Positions 39,812 to 50,012 of a DNA stretch of 64,000 nt are shown here, in pieces. The translations under genes were made by a program, and so were the position numbers. This stretch comes from Bryobacteraceae bacterium (GTDB taxonomy: Bacteria > Acidobacteriota > Terriglobia > Bryobacterales > Bryobacteraceae). The stretch's first letter is position 1. Every line of letters starts with the position of its first letter. Under the pieces are notes generated by a model that was not told where the DNA came from, did not search any database, and saw nothing but the letters and a program-made list of their open reading frames with translations. The stretch spans positions 62,001-126,000 of the forward strand of contig JAIEMJ010000007.1 in the NCBI GenBank assembly GCA_019752335.1. The letters are read 5' to 3'.

Positions 39812-40267
39812 ATGAAGACTCTCCTCACGCTGATCGCCGCTGGCGCGTTGACGCTTGCCGCGAAGAACCAGGACCTGGGCAAGCCGCTCACCTTGAAGCA
39901 GCCGATGAACGTCGGCACGGTGGTGTCGCAGCCGGAGCCGCTGATCGGCAAGACCGTCCAGGTGAAGGGCAAAGTGACGGAAGTCTGCACCATGGCTGGT
40001 TGCTGGATGGCGCTGGTGGATCCCGAAACCAGCCAGACCCTCCGCATCAAGGTGAACGACGGCGAAATCGTTTTCCCGAAGGAAGCCATCGGCAAGCTCG
40101 CGCTCGCCGAAGGCACCCTCAAGAAGATGGTGCTTACCAAGGAGCAGACCATCGCCCGCATGAAGCACGAAGCCGAGGAGACGGGCCGGAAGTTTGACCC
40201 CGCCAAGATCACCAGCGGCATGACCATCTACCAAATCAACGGCACAGGCGCGCGCCTGCTGGACTAG
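39812..40267 (+). CDS. DUF4920 domain-containing exported protein
   Basis: A 151-residue protein. The signal peptide (KTLLTLIAAGALTLAAK) is followed by an OB-fold-like DUF4920 domain: IGKTVQVKGKVTEVCTMAGCWMAL, with a conserved C-x4-C-W, then LRIKVNDGEIVFPKEAIGK and VLTKEQTIARMKHEAEETG. The two cysteines could bind a metal or form a disulfide. It is presumably periplasmic. GATAAT lies 6 nt before ATG. The stop TAG shares its last base with the GTG of the downstream RNA ligase gene (TAGTG), so the two are translationally coupled although their functions seem unrelated. Confidence 0.85.
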   Translation: MKTLLTLIAAGALTLAAKNQDLGKPLTLKQPMNVGTVVSQPEPLIGKTVQVKGKVTEVCTMAGCWMALVDPETSQTLRIKVNDGEIVFPKEAIGKLALAEGTLKKMVLTKEQTIARMKHEAEETGRKFDPAKITSGMTIYQINGTGARLLD

Positions 40268-41331
40268 TGCTTTATCCTAAGCTGGACCTGCTGCACGAAT
40301 TCGTCGCCAACGGATACTGCACTCGCCGCCGCCATGCGCGCTTGCCGCTGTGGATCTACAACTACTCGCAGCGCACCCAGTTCGACTTTAAGGCCCATGA
40401 CTGGCCCGACGTTCTGCGCGACGCCCGCGGCCTGGTGCTTGATGAGCAGGGGCAGGTGGTGGCACGTGGCTTCGCCAAGTTCTTCAACCTGAGCCAGCTC
40501 ACCGAATTGCCCGCTGGCCATCCCGAATTCTGGGAGAAGGTGGACGGCAGCCTGATTCTGCTCTTCGCCTACGAAGGCGAACGCGTCTTTTCAACGCGCG
40601 GCAGCTTCGAGAGTGAACAGGCGGTGTGGGCGCACCAGTGGTTTCTGTCGCAGGCGCCTGAATACTACCCGCCCGCCGGCGAGACCGTGTTGATGGAAGC
40701 CGTCTATCCGGGCAACCGCATCGTCGTCGACTATGAGGGCCGGGAAGAACTCGTCTCATTGGGTTCGGTGGACCTGGCCGGCCGCGACACGGCCACTTGG
40801 CAGCAGTTACCCGGCGTGATCCGGCCAGCTCGCTTCTACGGGCGGCAGGACGCGCGGACGATCCCGGCCACGGAAGGCGAGGGCTTCGTGCTGCGCTGGC
40901 CCGACGGCACGCGCGCCAAGGTGAAGCTCGACGAGTACGTCCGCCTGCACCGGATGATCTTCGGCACGTCGACCAAGACGATCTGGGCGGCGTTGCGCGC
41001 CGGCGAGACGCCGGACGAGATTCCGGCGGACATCCCCGCTGAACTGCGCGACTGGATTCGCGAGCAAGCCGCTTTGTTGCGCGCCGCGCACGCCGGCGTC
41101 CTCGCCGAGGTGCAAGGCTATGTGGACGAGGCGTCGCGCTTGGGTTTGGTGCAGGGTCCGCGCAAGGAGTTCGCGGCGTGGGTGACGTCGCATCCGGTGA
41201 TCAAGCAGCGCGGCCTTAGCGGGCTGATCTTCCGGGTCGCGGACGGACGTGACTCTACTGATGAAATCTGGCGTTGGGTGGAGCCCGAATTCGCCCAGCC
41301 CGCGTGGCTACAGGGTGCCGACGCCGAGTAA
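40267..41331 (+). CDS. RNA ligase, T4 Rnl1-like family
   Basis: A 354-residue nucleotidyltransferase. Motif I is EKVDGSLILLF with the AMP-accepting Lys91. Upstream lies the family segment ARGLVLDEQGQVVARGFAKF leading to FFNL, as in Rnl1-type ligases. Further motifs: Ia FSTRGSF (about 108-114), III LMEAVYPGNRIVVDY (Glu144), IV GEGFVLRW and V AKVKLDEY (Lys218, Lys220). A C-terminal helical domain of about 120 residues follows. It would seal RNA 5'-phosphate and 3'-OH ends using ATP, acting in repair of broken RNAs. The start is GTG 40267, overlapping the previous stop. No polynucleotide kinase/phosphatase gene is nearby to prepare RNA ends. Confidence 0.85.
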   Translation: MLYPKLDLLHEFVANGYCTRRRHARLPLWIYNYSQRTQFDFKAHDWPDVLRDARGLVLDEQGQVVARGFAKFFNLSQLTELPAGHPEFWEKVDGSLILLFAYEGERVFSTRGSFESEQAVWAHQWFLSQAPEYYPPAGETVLMEAVYPGNRIVVDYEGREELVSLGSVDLAGRDTATWQQLPGVIRPARFYGRQDARTIPATEGEGFVLRWPDGTRAKVKLDEYVRLHRMIFGTSTKTIWAALRAGETPDEIPADIPAELRDWIREQAALLRAAHAGVLAEVQGYVDEASRLGLVQGPRKEFAAWVTSHPVIKQRGLSGLIFRVADGRDSTDEIWRWVEPEFAQPAWLQGADAE

Positions 41332-44271: not shown

Positions 44272-44359
44272 TCATCGCGGGTGCTGTCAGCGCGGCGAGG
44301 TCGCGCCGCATCCCGTCTTCCGCGGCCAGCGGAAGCAGGAGAAAGAGAAGGATTTTCAT
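44231..44359 (-). other. Displaced N-terminal fragment of the M28 peptidase gene
   Basis: ATG 44359 begins a 42-codon frame that gives a signal peptide, then RRDLAALTAPAMNGRVALEP, the normal beginning of such peptidases. It stops at TGA 44231-44233. The M28 frame continues one base later (ARLAADFIAAGF). Removing one base around 44250 joins both. Confidence 0.7.
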
Positions 44360-44399
44360 GGCTGGCTTCGATGATAGCTCGCGTTGGCCAGCCTCAGCT

Positions 44400-45938
44400 T
44401 CAGCGGCCGCCGGCCGCCGCGTCGCTGGCGCGCTGGAAGAGGTTGCCCATGCGGTTCATTTCGTCGTCGCTGATGTGTTGCGGGAAGCCGGCCAGGATGC
44501 CGGTGACGTTCCGGAAAGAACGGCCGATGTGCATGCCGGTGCCGTCGATCAGGAACTCGCGGATGTTTTTGTCGTGGTGCGAACCGCGCATTTTGAGGAC
44601 GGTGATTCCACGGCGCATTTCGCCGATCATTTCGACGTAGCGCAGCAGGATGATGGAGTCCGTGACGGTGGAAATGTGGGCCTCAGTGACGGACGTCCCG
44701 CCCATCAGGGTGGGGGTGGTGGCGGTGAAGAGGCCGGCCATTTCGCGATGTTTCACGAACGACGTCAGGTCGACGACGAATTCGCGGTAGCTCTTCAGGC
44801 TGGCGACGCGCTCCAGCGCGGACAAACTGTCGATGGCGATACGCTGCGGCTTGAATTCGTCCACGGCGCGCTTGATCATCAGCAGGTGGTCTTCGAGGCC
44901 CTCATGCTCCGGGTAGGTGCAAACCACTTTGATGAGCCCCTGCGCTTCGAGCGCTTCGTAGTCGACGCCCCAACCGGTGGCGTTGCGGAAAAGCTGATCG
45001 CGGCTCTCCTCGAAGGCGAAGAGCAGGCAGCGTTCGCCGCTCTTGGCGCCGCCGGCGATGAACTCCGTGGTGATGAGCGTCTTGCCGCAGCCGGTGGCGC
45101 CGGTGATGAGGACGATGGAATCCCGGAAGAAGCCGCCGCCGCACATTTCGTCCAGCATTTCGTTGCCGGAACTCACCCGCATGCTGGAGGAGCGCTGCTT
45201 GAGCTCCAAAGCGGAAAGCGGGATGACGACAATGCCCTCGCCGTTGACGATGGTGAAGGGGAACTCGCCGCGCTGATGGCGGGTACCGCGGAACTTCAGC
45301 ACTTCAATCGTGCGGCGGCGCTTTTCGTCATCAAGCGAATTGCGGAGAATGATCACGTTGTCCGCGACGAACTCTTCCACGCCATGGCGGCTGATCTCGC
45401 CGTATTCCTCGGTGCGCTCCGCCGTCATCAGGGCGGTGACGGCCATGCCCTTTAGCACCAGGCCGATGCGGAAGAGTTCACGGCGGATGACGGAACTATC
45501 GGGCAACTGGGTAAAGATGGCGCCGAGCGAATCCAGCGAAACACGGGTCGCTTTCACCTTGCGCACGGCGTACTCGATGCGGGCGGCGAGGGCGCCGAGG
45601 TCGTAGGAACCGCTGATGACGATAGACTCGGGCTCCGGCGACGCATCGACAAAGGCCCACTTGCCTTCGGCCTCCCACCGGTCAATGTTCCAGTTCAGGC
45701 TGCGCATGTTGGCGCGGATATCGGCGGGAGACTCCTCAAAGGTGACGAAGACGCCGCCCTCGCCCGTGCTCTCGATGCCCGCCGCCAGAAACTGCGCGGC
45801 GAGGATGGTCTTGGCGCTGCCGGAGGTGCCGGCAACCAACGTGGTGCGGCCCTTGGGCAAACCGCCTTCGGTAATCAAGTCGAGGCCCGGGATGCCGGTG
45901 CTCAGCTTTTCAATGGTGGCGAGTACGGGAGGATTCAA
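44400..45938 (-). CDS. kaiC: Circadian clock protein KaiC-like double RecA-domain ATPase
   Basis: A 512-residue protein with tandem KaiC domains. The CI P-loop is GTSGSAKT (37-44) and its catalytic Glu pair E68/E69. The CII P-loop is GATGCGKT (280-287) with E310/E311. The CII phosphorylation sites of cyanobacterial KaiC (T426, S431, T432) are conserved as T418, S423 and T424 in TEAHISTVTDSIILL, followed by MRGSHHDKNIREF. After FRNVTGILAGFPQHI comes a 25-residue tail (ISDDEMNRMGNLFQRASD) at the place of the A-loop and KaiA-binding tail. An autokinase/ATPase oscillator or hourglass protein is therefore plausible. It overlaps kaiB by 4 nt; the operon order is regulator, kaiB, kaiC. Confidence 0.93.
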   Translation of the reverse strand: MNPPVLATIEKLSTGIPGLDLITEGGLPKGRTTLVAGTSGSAKTILAAQFLAAGIESTGEGGVFVTFEESPADIRANMRSLNWNIDRWEAEGKWAFVDASPEPESIVISGSYDLGALAARIEYAVRKVKATRVSLDSLGAIFTQLPDSSVIRRELFRIGLVLKGMAVTALMTAERTEEYGEISRHGVEEFVADNVIILRNSLDDEKRRRTIEVLKFRGTRHQRGEFPFTIVNGEGIVVIPLSALELKQRSSSMRVSSGNEMLDEMCGGGFFRDSIVLITGATGCGKTLITTEFIAGGAKSGERCLLFAFEESRDQLFRNATGWGVDYEALEAQGLIKVVCTYPEHEGLEDHLLMIKRAVDEFKPQRIAIDSLSALERVASLKSYREFVVDLTSFVKHREMAGLFTATTPTLMGGTSVTEAHISTVTDSIILLRYVEMIGEMRRGITVLKMRGSHHDKNIREFLIDGTGMHIGRSFRNVTGILAGFPQHISDDEMNRMGNLFQRASDAAAGGR

Positions 45939-46252
45939 GCAGATTGGCCCTTTGCGGAGGAATTTGCGGAGTTGTGATCGAGGGCGACGAGGTCAAGCCC
46001 GATGAGAACTTTGTCAGCTTCGGAGAGGTCGCCGACGATGCGGCGTAGCGGCGGCGGCAGTTGGCGAATCAGGGTGGGCGTGGCGAGGATGCGCTCGTCC
46101 TCGGCCAATTGCGGACGTTCGAGCACGTCGATGATCGTCACTTCGTACTGGCCGCCGAGGTCGTCGGCACAGATGCGTCTGAGATTGTGGATAGCGGCGC
46201 GGGCGCGCTCGGTGTTTCCGGTGACATAGAGGCGGAGGATGGTCTTTTCCAT
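45935..46252 (-). CDS. kaiB: Circadian clock protein KaiB
   Basis: A 105-residue thioredoxin-like protein very close to cyanobacterial KaiB. Conserved parts are LRLYVTGNTERARAAIHNLR, YEVTIIDVLERPQLAEDERI, and LATPTLIRQLPPPLRRIVGD with LSEADKVLIGLDL at the end. In cyanobacteria KaiB changes fold and binds phosphorylated KaiC to sequester KaiA and to signal to SasA/CikA. The residues of the fold-switch region (PPPLRRIVGDLS) are kept. The stop overlaps the start of kaiC (ATGA), and 17 nt separate the start from the upstream regulator gene. Confidence 0.95.
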   Translation of the reverse strand: MEKTILRLYVTGNTERARAAIHNLRRICADDLGGQYEVTIIDVLERPQLAEDERILATPTLIRQLPPPLRRIVGDLSEADKVLIGLDLVALDHNSANSSAKGQSA

Positions 46253-46269
46253 GGTCGGTCGAGTTCTTT

Positions 46270-47112
46270 CTACCCCTGAGTAGCGGCTTGGGATTTCCCG
46301 GCATAGCTGGCCAGATAATGGGTCCGGTAAAAGCTCGCCAGATTTCCGACGAGGCTGAGAATCAAGAGGCGCCCTTCTTCGAGATAAGCCTGGCGGCGGG
46401 CGCGCGGGGCTTGCGCGGTAGCGGTTTGCATCCCGGCCATGTGCACTTCAATGAGGTCGCGCGGCGAGGCGCGCAGGCGGCCTAACTCCTCGCCCATCGT
46501 CACCAGCCGCGCGGCCACGGTCGACTCAATCTGGAAAGTGCGCTCCTCCAGGGCTTGCTCCAGCAGTTCACGATACGCCGCATGGAAGCGTGCGAAAGCG
46601 TCCGGGTTTACGTCTTTGAGCGCGGTGTTGGCATAAAGCTGAGTGGTCACCGCCGTGGCGGGCGAGGCCAAGCGTTCGAGCGACTGCAGTTCGCGCTCGC
46701 TCCGCGCCTGCTCCACCATCTGGTGCAGGCGATGCCGTTCGACGGCGTAACGGATTACCCGCTGGAGCAAGGGACCGTCCACGCGGTCCTTGTGGAGGTA
46801 ATCCTGGCCGTCCACACTGAGCGCCTGCAGGGCGCTATCGCCAGCGTGTTCGCCAGAGAAGACAATTACGGGCACGTTGGCGGACTCCGCGCGGAAACGC
46901 GCCAGCGTGTCGCGCCCGGCCGAGTCCGGCAGATTGAGGTCCAGGAGGGCGACGTCAAAACGGTCCCGGCTCAGCCAGCTCAGACCCTCGCTCAAGGTGT
47001 GGGCATGCGCATCCACCACGTTCGCCGAGCCGGCCAACATCTCTTCCACCAGCAGCGCCCAGGCAGCGTCGTCCTCGATCAAGAGTACGCTGACTCTGGG
47101 ATTTGCGGTCAT
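46270..47112 (-). CDS. Response regulator with KaiA-like (KaiA/RsbU-N fold) C-terminal domain
   Basis: A 280-residue two-domain protein. Residues 7-125 are a receiver domain with the acidic pocket E13/D14/D15, phospho-acceptor Asp58 (ALLDLNLPD), Ser86 and Lys108. A helical linker (about 128-150) follows. Residues 165-268 form an all-helical domain: AAYRELLEQALEER, SPRDLIEVHMAGMQTA and GRLLILSLVGNLASFYRTHY. These align by eye with the helical C-terminus of KaiA (VLEIHVELM and LIDVIAHLCEMYRR). It has no DNA-binding domain. As first gene of the kaiB-kaiC operon it is a candidate KaiA equivalent under phosphorelay control. The receiver call is firm; the KaiA-like call is inference. Confidence 0.8.
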   Translation of the reverse strand: MTANPRVSVLLIEDDAAWALLVEEMLAGSANVVDAHAHTLSEGLSWLSRDRFDVALLDLNLPDSAGRDTLARFRAESANVPVIVFSGEHAGDSALQALSVDGQDYLHKDRVDGPLLQRVIRYAVERHRLHQMVEQARSERELQSLERLASPATAVTTQLYANTALKDVNPDAFARFHAAYRELLEQALEERTFQIESTVAARLVTMGEELGRLRASPRDLIEVHMAGMQTATAQAPRARRQAYLEEGRLLILSLVGNLASFYRTHYLASYAGKSQAATQG

Positions 47113-47117
47113 TCCTC

Positions 47118-47130
47118 ATGATAATATCAT
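47118..47130. promoter_or_regulatory. 13-bp palindrome in the divergent promoter of the clock locus
   Basis: ATGATA-A-TATCAT forms a perfect palindrome in the 32-nt gap between the start codons of the response regulator (47112, minus) and the cobalamin-binding protein (47145, plus). It contains -10-like hexamers for both directions (TAATAT plus, TATTAT minus). It could be a shared core promoter and/or operator. Confidence 0.55.
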
Positions 47131-47144
47131 CAGTATTCAGAATA

Positions 47145-47798
47145 ATGGTCGGAATTGATCAATCTTTTGCGGGTCTGGCGGGTGGGTATCTGCAGTGCCT
47201 ACTATCCGGGAATGGCGACGGCGCCTGGCATTTGGTCAAGCAGGCAATGGCGGACGGGGTTCCCATCCGCGACCTCTATTTGCAGGTGTTTCAACCCTGC
47301 CAGTACGAAGTGGGGCGGCTGTGGGAAGCCAATGAGGCGACCGTCGCGCAGGAGCATTACTGCACGGCCGCCACCCAGACGATCATGTCGCGGCTGCATG
47401 CCCGGGTCTTTTCGGCTGAACGTACCGGCCGGTCCGCGGTGGTGGTGGGTGTCGGGGGCGAGTTGCATGAGATTGGCGCGAGAATGGTGGCTGATTTCCT
47501 GGAAATGAAGGGTTGGGATACGCGGTATCTCGGCCCCAATCTGCCTCCCGATGAGATCAGCCGCAACGTCATCGCGCACGATCCGGACTTGGTCTGCCTT
47601 TCTTGCACCATGACCTACCACGTGAGTCTGGTGGAGCAGACGGTCGCCGGGTTGCGCGAGGCCAAAGCGCGAGCCAAGGTCCTGGTAGGCGGGCTTCCCT
47701 TTAACCGCGACCCCGAATTGTGGCGCCGGACCGGGGCCGACGGCTGGGCGCCGGACGCTGGATCCCTGGTGGACTGGCTGCGGGCGGCGGCATGGTAG
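47145..47798 (+). CDS. Stand-alone cobalamin-binding protein with CarH-type light-sensor motifs
   Basis: A 217-residue protein made of a B12-binding-2 cap (about 10-90) and a Rossmann-like B12-binding domain (about 95-215). The cap has W60-x9-E70-H71 (LWEANEATVAQEH), the motif of CarH/LitR-type adenosylcobalamin photoreceptors. The lower-axial ligand motif is E106-x-H108-x-x-G111 (GGELHEIGARM), again the CarH form rather than DxHxxG. Further B12 motifs are S153 (CLSCTMTYH) and G182-G183 (VLVGGLPF). There is no HTH, so unlike CarH it cannot bind DNA by itself. It sits between the clock operon and a histidine kinase, suggesting a light or cobalamin input. ATG 47145 is chosen; an upstream in-frame ATG overlaps the promoter. 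Confidence 0.85.
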   Translation: MVGIDQSFAGLAGGYLQCLLSGNGDGAWHLVKQAMADGVPIRDLYLQVFQPCQYEVGRLWEANEATVAQEHYCTAATQTIMSRLHARVFSAERTGRSAVVVGVGGELHEIGARMVADFLEMKGWDTRYLGPNLPPDEISRNVIAHDPDLVCLSCTMTYHVSLVEQTVAGLREAKARAKVLVGGLPFNRDPELWRRTGADGWAPDAGSLVDWLRAAAW

Positions 47799-47866
47799 GG
47801 CGAGCCCCCCGGCCCTCCTCAACCACGAGCATGAGCCACCGGGCGGGCCAGGGGGCCCGCCCTACC
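47794..47866. repeat. Long palindromic element filling the gap before the histidine kinase gene
   Basis: A 22-nt left arm (47794-47815) and right arm (47845-47866) are inverted copies with two mismatches, separated by 29 nt. The left arm starts at the stop codon of the B12 protein, and the right arm ends 2 nt before the kinase ATG. It is GC-rich and REP/BIME-like. In mRNA it would form a stable hairpin directly at the kinase start, where no Shine-Dalgarno sequence is visible. Confidence 0.7.
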
Positions 47867-47868
47867 GT

Positions 47869-48918
47869 ATGACACTCCGATTTGCGGTGCGTTGCAATGC
47901 CGCCGGGATCATCACGGAGGTGCTGCGCGGCGCCGCGCCGCTCGGCGTGCCATTCCTTGATTTGCTGGACGGTGGCAGCCTGGGCAAGGCACGCCGTTTC
48001 GTGGCTCAAGTGGCGTTGCAAGGCGCCGTCTCCGGCTGGGAGTTCAACGTCCTGGCGGGCGACTCCGCCGAAGCCGTCCAATTCACCGGGCTGCTCGACG
48101 ATGACGGCGGATACCGGATCATCGCCGCCAATCTCCCGCCCGGCTTTGAACAAGCGGCCCGCCTGCACAACGAACTCGTCTCTTCGCAGCGCGACCTTGG
48201 CCGCCAGAACGCGTCGCTCGAACGCGTCAACCGGGAATTGCAGCAATTCGCCGCCACCGTCTCGCATGATCTGCGCGCCCCCCTGCGCAACATCCGCCTG
48301 CTGATCGGTCTGTTCGAAAGCAAGGCCCCACAACTGCTTGACGAGAGGGCCGCCCTTTGGCTGAGCCACATTGTCGCCAATGCCGAACGCATGCAGCGGC
48401 TGCTGGACCGTACACTCGAATATGCCTCCGCCGAAGGTGCGCCTCTGCGTTTGGAGGCCGTCCCGTTGAATGAGGTGGTGGACGTTACGGCGAACCCCTA
48501 CGTCACCCGCGGTGACCTCCCCGCCGTGCAGGGGGATCGCGTGCAACTCGAGCGCCTCTTCCAGAATCTCTTCGATAACGCCCTCGCTTACCGACGCGAG
48601 GAGACACCCCGCATCGAAGTACACGCGCGACCGGCGGGGAGCTACTGGCGGATCGCCGTCAGCGACAACGGCCTGGGCATTGCCTCCGCGGACCAGTCAC
48701 GTATCTTCGAAATGTTCGGGCGCGTGAACCCCCGTGGAGAAGGTGTCGGCATCGGCTTGGCTACTTGCCGCCAAGTGGTACACCGGCATCAGGGAGAGAT
48801 CTGGGTAAAGTCAGGGTTGGGGGAGGGAAGTACGTTCTATGTCACATTGCCCGCGGCGGCTACATCACCCGAGCTTGGCAGCCGTCCAGTAGACGGGATA
48901 GCGATTGCGGATCACTAA
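47869..48918 (+). CDS. Sensor histidine kinase (soluble, HisKA-HATPase)
   Basis: A 349-residue kinase without membrane segments. The N-terminal 95 residues look like a degenerate PAS domain (GWEFNVLAGDSAEAVQFTGL, then DDDGGYRIIAAN). A short coiled coil (about 98-126) leads to the HisKA H-box QFAATVSHDLRAPLR (His133). The HATPase domain has the N-box NLFDNAL (Asn237), G1 SDNGLGI (266-271) and G2 GEGVGIGLATCRQVV. The HDLRAPLR form is like kinases attached to phytochromes. It may phosphorylate the receiver domain of the regulator across the divergent promoter. Unlike SasA it has no KaiB-like domain. The last 59 nt overlap a KaiB-like gene on the other strand. Confidence 0.9.
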   Translation: MTLRFAVRCNAAGIITEVLRGAAPLGVPFLDLLDGGSLGKARRFVAQVALQGAVSGWEFNVLAGDSAEAVQFTGLLDDDGGYRIIAANLPPGFEQAARLHNELVSSQRDLGRQNASLERVNRELQQFAATVSHDLRAPLRNIRLLIGLFESKAPQLLDERAALWLSHIVANAERMQRLLDRTLEYASAEGAPLRLEAVPLNEVVDVTANPYVTRGDLPAVQGDRVQLERLFQNLFDNALAYRREETPRIEVHARPAGSYWRIAVSDNGLGIASADQSRIFEMFGRVNPRGEGVGIGLATCRQVVHRHQGEIWVKSGLGEGSTFYVTLPAAATSPELGSRPVDGIAIADH

Positions 48919-49147
48919 GGTCGCCCAGAATCCGCACGGTGGGCATCGGCATTAGGCGCAAAAGAGTCGGCGTGGCGATGACACGATCCTGCTCGGCCCG
49001 TCCGGCATCCTCCTGCACGTCCACCACCTCGATCTGCACCGTAGCTTGCCGCTCCCGGCAGAAGGCACGCAGGTTTTCGAGCGCCACTTGCGAACGGGAA
49101 CTCTGGCCGTGGATGAAGAGACGTAAGATCACAAGCGCGACTTTCAT
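48860..49147 (-). CDS. Second KaiB-like (thioredoxin-fold) protein
   Basis: A 95-residue protein with the KaiB/SasA-N pattern: ALVILRLFIHGQSSRSQVAL at the N-terminus, VQIEVVDVQEDAGRAEQDRV in the middle and ATPTLLRLMPMPTVRILGDL at the end. It is more divergent than the first kaiB: PPP is MPM, and the GLDL end is replaced by RLLDG. It could be a fold-locked KaiB paralogue that competes for KaiC, or a free equivalent of the SasA sensory domain for the adjacent kinase. Its 3' end overlaps the kinase gene by 59 nt in antisense. The ATG at 49147 is preceded by GCTAGG. Confidence 0.85.
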   Translation of the reverse strand: MKVALVILRLFIHGQSSRSQVALENLRAFCRERQATVQIEVVDVQEDAGRAEQDRVIATPTLLRLMPMPTVRILGDLSDPQSLSRLLDGCQARVM

Positions 49148-49187
49148 CCTAGCAAAATCTGGCCGTCTTTAGCATGCCCCTGAACGA

Positions 49188-49201
49188 GGGTTTTCGAACC
49201 C
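49188..49201. other. Small TTCG-loop hairpin in the gap before the KaiB-like gene
   Basis: GGGTT-TTCG-AACCC is a perfect 5-bp stem with a TTCG loop in the 85-nt gap between the NIPSNAP stop and the KaiB-like start. It may help end the minus-strand NIPSNAP transcript, but no T-run follows on that strand. Confidence 0.3.
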
Positions 49202-49232
49202 CCGCCCCGGTTCGTCCTCAAGGTGATGGCCG

Positions 49233-50012
49233 CTATCGAATCTGTGAAAACGGCAGCGGTGAGAACATCGTGTTCGAGATATTCGAGACGATTTCGGCAT
49301 CCGAGTAGCCGTCGGTGGCGCGCAGCTTCAGCCATTCTGGATCGGTAACAAAGGTGCGCCAGTTGCGTTCGCGCGACGCCAGGTCGTCGAAGGCCAGCAG
49401 GTAAGTGAGTGACGGCTGATTCGGGCCAAAAACCGTCTCGCCAAAGAACACCGGCAACAAGCCGGTCTTCTTGAAAATGCGAATCTCGCCCATCGTGTCG
49501 AACATGCCGATTTTCTTGCGCAACGCTCCCCAGTTGTTGGCTTCGTAGGTCCGCAATTCGAAGACGCGTGCCGGTTTCTTCTCATCGACCGGCGGCGCAA
49601 CGACCTTGGGAAAGCCTTCAAAGGCCCGTAGCAACTGCGTCTCGACGCGCATGTAACTCAAGCCGGGCAAGGCTTGAAAGGCCTGCGTGGCTTTCTGATA
49701 CTCCGCGTCGGCGCCGATCTTGTCCCAGGCTTGCTCCATGGCATATAAGGATCCATAAGAGCGCGCGGTGAGAATATAGGGCGTGTCGGCGCCAATCAAG
49801 CTGGAAAACACGCCCACCGGCCCCAGCCCGGCGCGCACCGCCACCGGCAAGTAGGAATTCTTGATGAAATCCACGACGCGCTGCCGTTGATTCTCCCGTG
49901 TGTTTCGCAGCCGGAAGTAGCGCAGCTCGATGTAGGAGCTTTCGGGACGCTTCGGCGCGGGCGTTTGGGCCATGGCCAGGGGGGCGGCGGCAAGAACGGA
50001 TCGGCGTTTCAT
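49233..50012 (-). CDS. NIPSNAP family protein
   Basis: A 259-residue exported protein. The N-terminus KRRSVLAAAPLAMAQ is a short signal with twin arginines. Two NIPSNAP/ferredoxin-like repeats follow: SYIELRYFRLRNTRENQRQR in the first and RVFELRTYEANNWGALRKKI in the second. Further family elements are LPVFFGETVFG and LTYLLAFDDLASRERNWRTF, which leads into the VTDPEW typical of the C-terminus. The dimeric alpha/beta-barrel fold is of unknown function in bacteria. ATG 50012 has GGGAG 6-7 nt upstream and a minus-strand TATAAT about 10 nt upstream, inside a palindrome shared with the divergent MFS gene. Confidence 0.9.
   Translation of the reverse strand: MKRRSVLAAAPLAMAQTPAPKRPESSYIELRYFRLRNTRENQRQRVVDFIKNSYLPVAVRAGLGPVGVFSSLIGADTPYILTARSYGSLYAMEQAWDKIGADAEYQKATQAFQALPGLSYMRVETQLLRAFEGFPKVVAPPVDEKKPARVFELRTYEANNWGALRKKIGMFDTMGEIRIFKKTGLLPVFFGETVFGPNQPSLTYLLAFDDLASRERNWRTFVTDPEWLKLRATDGYSDAEIVSNISNTMFSPLPFSQIR

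Follow-up and report, generated by a model that had tools for sequence, protein, structure and literature searches.

A light-type B12-binding protein and its likely partner histidine kinase between two kaiB genes in a Bryobacteraceae bacterium

Genes of the locus

The window, as the whole analysed stretch of 64,000 nucleotides is called here, belongs to contig JAIEMJ010000007.1 of a Bryobacteraceae bacterium (Acidobacteriota). On its plus strand, positions 47145-47798 are an open reading frame for a B12-binding protein of 217 aa, which an upstream TTG at 47103 could extend to 231 aa. The gene lies among the following features.

44400-45938, minus strand: kaiC, with the phosphosite HIST and the CI Walker A motif GTSGSAKT (NCBIfam KaiC, 720 bits against a cut-off of 408)
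45935-46252, minus strand: kaiB (Pfam KaiB, 2e-28)
46270-47112, minus strand: response regulator of 280 aa, with a receiver (residues 9-118) and a helical C-terminal half of no assigned family
47113-47144: divergent gap of 32 nt between the regulator gene and the B12 gene
47145-47798, plus strand: stand-alone light-type B12-binding protein, with a four-helix cap (residues 14-84) and a Rossmann part (97-205)
47869-48918, plus strand: likely partner histidine kinase of 349 aa, with a PAS-fold domain (residues ~1-91) and a helix, HisKA (124-189) and HATPase_c (222-330)
47881-48198, plus strand: partner domain of the kinase with its helical linker (residues 5-110), without a Pfam match
48860-49147, minus strand: second kaiB-like gene, 95 aa (Pfam KaiB, 6e-18), convergent with the kinase gene and overlapping it at its tail by 59 nt

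The minus-strand order is response regulator, kaiB and kaiC. The histidine kinase gene starts 70 nt downstream of the B12 gene on the plus strand, at the distance given in a preliminary description of this DNA. That description had the B12 gene divergent from a kaiB/kaiC operon. The strands are indeed opposite, but the adjoining gene is the response regulator, and kaiB and kaiC follow it.

Both Kai genes that it had reported beside the sensor are genuine by their profile scores. Solved KaiC proteins match the window KaiC with up to 715 bits, and those scoring ~585-613 bits are presumably cyanobacterial. The locus has both a kaiB and a double-domain kaiC with a Ser/Thr phosphosite, the two features that mark a Kai clock locus. 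The nearest solved relative of the second kaiB-like product is Lpp1115 (4kun), which we take to be a Legionella protein. Only two kaiB genes were found in the genome (assembly ~97% complete), and both flank the B12-kinase pair.

One genome of the same genus was searched (G465, 94% complete). It gave no B12 gene at 1e-10 and no match at the DNA level to the window from ~44277 to 49233. The two genes flanking the module are present there, at separate places. Given these results, the block from ~44277 to 49233 was probably gained or lost as one unit.

A light-type B12 domain near photocobilins

Pfam, at E values up to 1, found B12-binding_2 at residues 14-84 (4e-17), B12-binding at 97-205 (2e-25), and nothing else in the B12 protein. 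No helix-turn-helix or MerR-type DNA-binding domain appeared at this threshold, which agrees with the preliminary description. The two motifs it had named, W60-x9-E70H71 and E106-x-H108-x-x-G111, are found in the translated frame at the positions claimed. GxxW, EH, GxxH and GxxxP constitute the SignatureFinder signature of light-responsive cobalamin-binding domains, according to PMC11796333. This signature is complete in the window protein (GxxW at 57, EH, GxxH at 105, GxxxP at 130).

The preliminary description had called the protein CarH-type. The light-type motifs stand, and Wx9EH and ExHxxG are common to the window protein and CarH/LitR (5c8a, 3whp), but the nearest solved sequences are photocobilins (SasPcob 8j2w/8j2x, AbDPcob 8j2y), which likewise have the light-type B12 domain. 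The best match is 8j2x (6e-28), followed by 8jbs, a putative cobalamin-binding protein (2e-20), AbDPcob (2e-15), 1y80 (8e-15) and 4jgi (9e-12). CarH 5c8a (5e-10) and AerR 7te2 (1.3e-6) rank lower. Both 1y80 and 4jgi, placed above CarH, are presumably of the corrinoid-protein type. Unlike CarH/LitR, the window protein has no MerR DNA-binding domain, and membership in CarH was rejected on this ground. By its sequence, it is a light-type B12 domain nearest to photocobilins and not CarH proper.

In contrast to photocobilins, the window protein is without a bilin-binding domain, and its likely output is a separate kinase. A profile of 30 sequences for the globin-like bilin-binding domain, run with filters off against 718 frames of the window, gave nothing significant (best E 0.62). 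Stand-alone action has a precedent in this group: SasPcob has been suggested by its authors to act through protein-protein contacts (PMC10979010).

The same two Pfam domains are found in corrinoid carriers for methyltransferases, and the best NCBIfam match of the window protein by E-value is such a carrier, MtgC, far under its cut-off (59.6 against 370 bits). CarH comes just below (53 bits against 400). At 1e-10, the B12 protein has matches in 161 of 200 genomes of the same family. Besides the window, only seven places in the family exceed 119 bits, and the 22 loci retrieved below these are carriers. These 22 read D-x-H-D-I-G and are without Wx9EH, whereas the window protein has Wx9EH and ExHxxG. 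The preliminary description had proposed a phylogeny as a check against the carriers. In a tree of 68 rows, rooted at the midpoint only and excluding L077 (a near copy of L078 from another genome), all 22 carriers are on one branch (support 100/100, length 2.9), and the window protein lies outside it. It is weakly grouped (90/79) with four proteins, three of them from Desulfuromonadales or deltaproteobacteria and the fourth from Acidobacteriota. Among 12 window proteins scanned with Pfam, there is no methyltransferase. The identity as a carrier was rejected on motifs, tree position and neighbours, and we regard it as extremely improbable.

The scan of named genomes returned 10 loci, and 23 of 396 Acidobacteriota genomes, including the source genome, have matches at 1e-20. 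Elsewhere in the source genome, two weak matches were observed, in frames of 1193 aa and 134 aa. One relative, L107, reads AH in place of EH and is thus negative for Wx9EH. L085 is the same region as L013 and was dropped from every count of distinct loci.

Bilin-type domains are found in 28 of the 42 light-type rows (41 distinct loci). In L097, the bilin-type domain is a separate frame of 162 aa after the kinase. In L004 and L013, the B12 protein has the B12 domain only, and one or two genes upstream on the same strand is a gene for a heme oxygenase with a bilin-type domain.

L004:3475-4782, 424 codons: N-terminal heme oxygenase and photocobilin-type bilin-binding domain
L013:4662-5972, 430 codons: the same arrangement

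Such a protein is probably a biliverdin maker joined to its binder. B12-type domains with other ligands or cues exist, and the SCHIC domain of AppA binds heme (PMC9144470). The window protein could accordingly sense cobalamin level or redox state instead of light and report it through the kinase. We consider this unlikely, given the four published light-response signatures and the frequent bilin-type domains among the relatives. Light sensing is favoured because the heme oxygenase-bilin-domain genes adjoin the B12 gene in two of them. The source genome encodes two PF01923 adenosyltransferases, so a supply of adenosylcobalamin is probable.

The histidine kinase and its N-terminal domain

A downstream partner gene is present in 16 of the 18 distinct loci whose B12 score is at least 190 bits, the window included; 14 come from the locus survey, which is limited by a distance cut or contig end, and two (L076, L077) from the iterative search. 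The remaining two are L087 and L088. No kinase lies within ~400 nt of the carrier gene in any of the 22 carrier loci (flanks ~1.1-1.5 kb). The pairing of the B12 sensor with a histidine kinase is well supported.

Pfam gives nothing for residues 1-124 of the kinase. An iterative search of 6225 frames with the N-terminal partner domain gave 19 distinct loci with a score of at least 70 bits, and in each of them the domain is in the gene directly after the B12 gene; weaker matches (L080, L087, L088, L097) were left out of this count. In the same search, the domain is missing from eight loci whose kinases match the core of the window kinase better. The catalytic core is in fact closer to unpaired kinases (170 bits) than to B12-paired ones (121 bits at best). 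The set of frames is not random, because the loci were fetched for B12 or kinase genes. The hosts of the partner domain after B12 genes are Acidobacteriota, Desulfuromonadales, Paenibacillus, Azospirillum and one Clostridia genome, where the output is GGDEF.

Whole genomes were scanned with a profile of the partner domain, scoring the best 12 or fewer, or the best 26 or fewer, candidates per genome. At least six places were found in 396 Acidobacteriota genomes, six of six beside a B12 gene. In 193 genomes of the class of G355, there are at least five matches, the weakest in G677 (4e-8), where no B12 gene was found in the 16.5 kb read. Pooling both scans, the match is beside a B12 gene in eight of nine distinct genomes. 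As the profile already contained rows from seven of these genomes, what carries weight is how few other matches there are; the two new genomes are G646, with the match beside a B12 gene, and G677. The recurrence of the partner domain after B12 genes is what is new here.

The domain is not bound to kinases. In L012 (6623-7612), it is fused to GGDEF in place of a kinase after the B12 gene. A GGDEF gene also follows the B12 sensor gene at L130:5653-6594, and of these two loci one has the partner domain. In Ilyobacter, a GGDEF gene follows the B12 gene without a match to the partner domain. Independently of the Kai question, such a module, linking B12 photosensors with kinases or diguanylate cyclases, would represent a novel type of two-component switch driven by light.

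The AlphaFold model of the partner domain is fairly confident (mean pLDDT 84) and shows a PAS fold with a following helix, according to Foldseek and to VIA-align, where many PAS domains align at Z ~12 to 13. Foldseek also matches PpsR chains. They are absent from the best 50 VIA-align matches, where many other PAS domains have Z 12-13, and sequence profiles show no kinship; a specific relationship to PpsR was thus rejected.

The arrangement resembles that of AerR/PpaA with CrtJ/PpsR and of AppA SCHIC with PpsR, in which a B12-type protein acts on a partner that begins with a PAS domain and has a long helix. AerR acting on CrtJ is a known case of a stand-alone B12 photoreceptor working through a protein partner, and the solved contact of AppA SCHIC is on the helix after the N-terminal PAS domain of PpsR (both PMC9144470). 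The window has a stand-alone B12 protein and a PAS-fold neighbour, which presumably touch in a similar way. It differs in that the output is a histidine kinase, the match to AerR is weaker (1e-6), and there is no sequence match to PpsR. Action through a protein partner, as the preliminary description had supposed, is supported by the conserved gene pair and the recurring partner domain, and the adjoining kinase is the likely partner.

The B12 gene of the window probably specifies one half of a light sensor of photocobilin type, the B12 half, made as a separate protein and read by the adjoining kinase, with an output that is perhaps on Kai. The B12 protein would take up adenosylcobalamin in the dark, and illumination would cleave the Co-C bond, with His71 and His108 as ligands of cobalt, an assignment taken over from CarH. 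The PAS-fold domain and the following helix of the kinase would sense the altered protein, so that kinase activity would depend on the state of the B12 protein. The receiver protein at 46270-47112 would be the most likely phosphate acceptor. In the open-access literature, no paper among those listed is described as dealing with a B12 photosensor with a histidine kinase or with a B12-light-Kai system.

Linkage to the Kai genes

Distinct loci number 42 (the window, L004-L013, L076-L105, L107 and L148, with L085 counted as L013 and plasmid loci outside). Only two of them, the window and L083, have both kaiB and kaiC in the stretch read, and several contigs end early. L083 belongs to another Acidobacteriota family and is the top-scoring place after the window itself in the scan of 396 genomes. 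Its genes for the B12 protein, kinase, LuxR-type response regulator, KaiB and KaiC are on one strand in this order. Its kinase has the partner domain closest to that of the window (1e-9, 37 bits), and its KaiC (L083:10147-11655) is 63% identical to the window KaiC. The CI Walker A motif is degenerate in both of these B12-linked KaiCs (GTSGSAKT in the window, GSAGSCKS in L083), and CII is intact.

Since the Kai genes were part of what drew attention to the window, it was left out of the estimate of chance. The remaining 31 loci (L077 left out), with 381 kb around them, include a single Kai locus, for which P is ~0.07 on the assumption that each 5 Mb genome has one. Two Skermanella plasmids (L133, L134) carry, ~6 kb from the B12 gene, a kinase-like gene and a gene for a distantly related ATPase of KaiC type (188 and 190 bits). 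The stretch read shows neither kaiB nor the partner domain, and these plasmids were kept out of the Kai-linkage count. The L133 B12 protein carries a bilin-type domain.

The B12 protein and kinase might be a real light two-component pair beside Kai genes that are unrelated or merely a co-regulated module. The 40 of 42 distinct loci without kaiB and kaiC in the stretch read are in keeping with this. In another genus of the family, L110 and L113 have triads of kaiB, kinase and regulator, and over the stretch read they show neither kaiC nor a B12 gene; such triads indicate that kaiB and kinases can come together without a B12 gene. Against this speak the position of the pair between two kaiB genes, with no others found in the genome, the repeated linkage in L083 with a same-strand gene row and the regulator between, and the degenerate CI Walker A of both KaiCs. 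We judge an unrelated Kai module rather unlikely. The output of the B12-kinase pair may bear on Kai, because the pair lies between both kaiB genes and the L083 pair is upstream of kaiB and kaiC. That it does so is a real possibility, short of an even expectation. Coupling to Kai, with L083 as one independent recurrence, is a plausible and serious hypothesis and not a result. With a B12 photosensor and its own kinase inside a Kai locus, direct light input to Kai is testable with few purified proteins.

The response regulator is where such input could enter. Its receiver is normal by Pfam. Its C-terminal half matches no family in Pfam or NCBIfam, KaiA and KaiA3 included. At 1e-30, the regulator finds only itself in 200 genomes of the family. 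In 297 genomes, the C-terminal half has, besides itself, one weak match (4.7e-4), and the frame concerned looks like a different kind of protein; in plasmids the half has no match. Its structure model is poor (mean pLDDT 45). With this model, KaiA 5c5e is rank 2 in Foldseek (E 0.042), and VIA-align aligns the C-terminal domain of KaiA (1q6a) at Z 7.7 over 99 residues with rmsd 3.5. In this comparison, 1q6a is top among natural folds, and three designed helical proteins score higher, so a KaiA-like C-terminal half stays a lead. Helical bundles often match by chance at such Z. The photocobilin bilin domain reaches a Z of 7.1, near that of KaiA. A hidden bilin domain in this half was rejected, as the profile gave nothing significant in the window and the hhalign probability is 0.5%. 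An RsbU-like pattern was also considered and does not show in Pfam or NCBIfam.

The regulator beside kaiB may, on the basis of this fold comparison, be KaiA-like. In KaiA3 of Synechocystis, a receiver is joined to a KaiA part, and its gene lies upstream of kaiB3; the protein keeps a phosphorylatable Asp, and its kinase is reported as not identified (PMC11372060). As in that KaiA3-KaiB3-KaiC3 system, the receiver protein of the window is encoded directly upstream of kaiB; unlike KaiA3, its C-terminal half matches no family by sequence. Histidine kinases linked to Kai genes are also known in SasA and CikA, whereas Pfam gives no KaiB-like or phytochrome-like input domain in the window kinase. It is conceivable, at low probability, that the regulator is KaiA3-like, with a receiver and a KaiA/RsbU-type bundle, and is phosphorylated in a light-dependent manner by the B12-kinase pair, whereby light would reset KaiC via a dedicated photoreceptor and a phosphorelay. 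If so, a Kai system would here receive its input from a genuine photoreceptor.

Elsewhere in the window, positions 40267-41331 encode a 354-aa protein with an RNA ligase domain (RNA_lig_T4_1, 2.5e-9).
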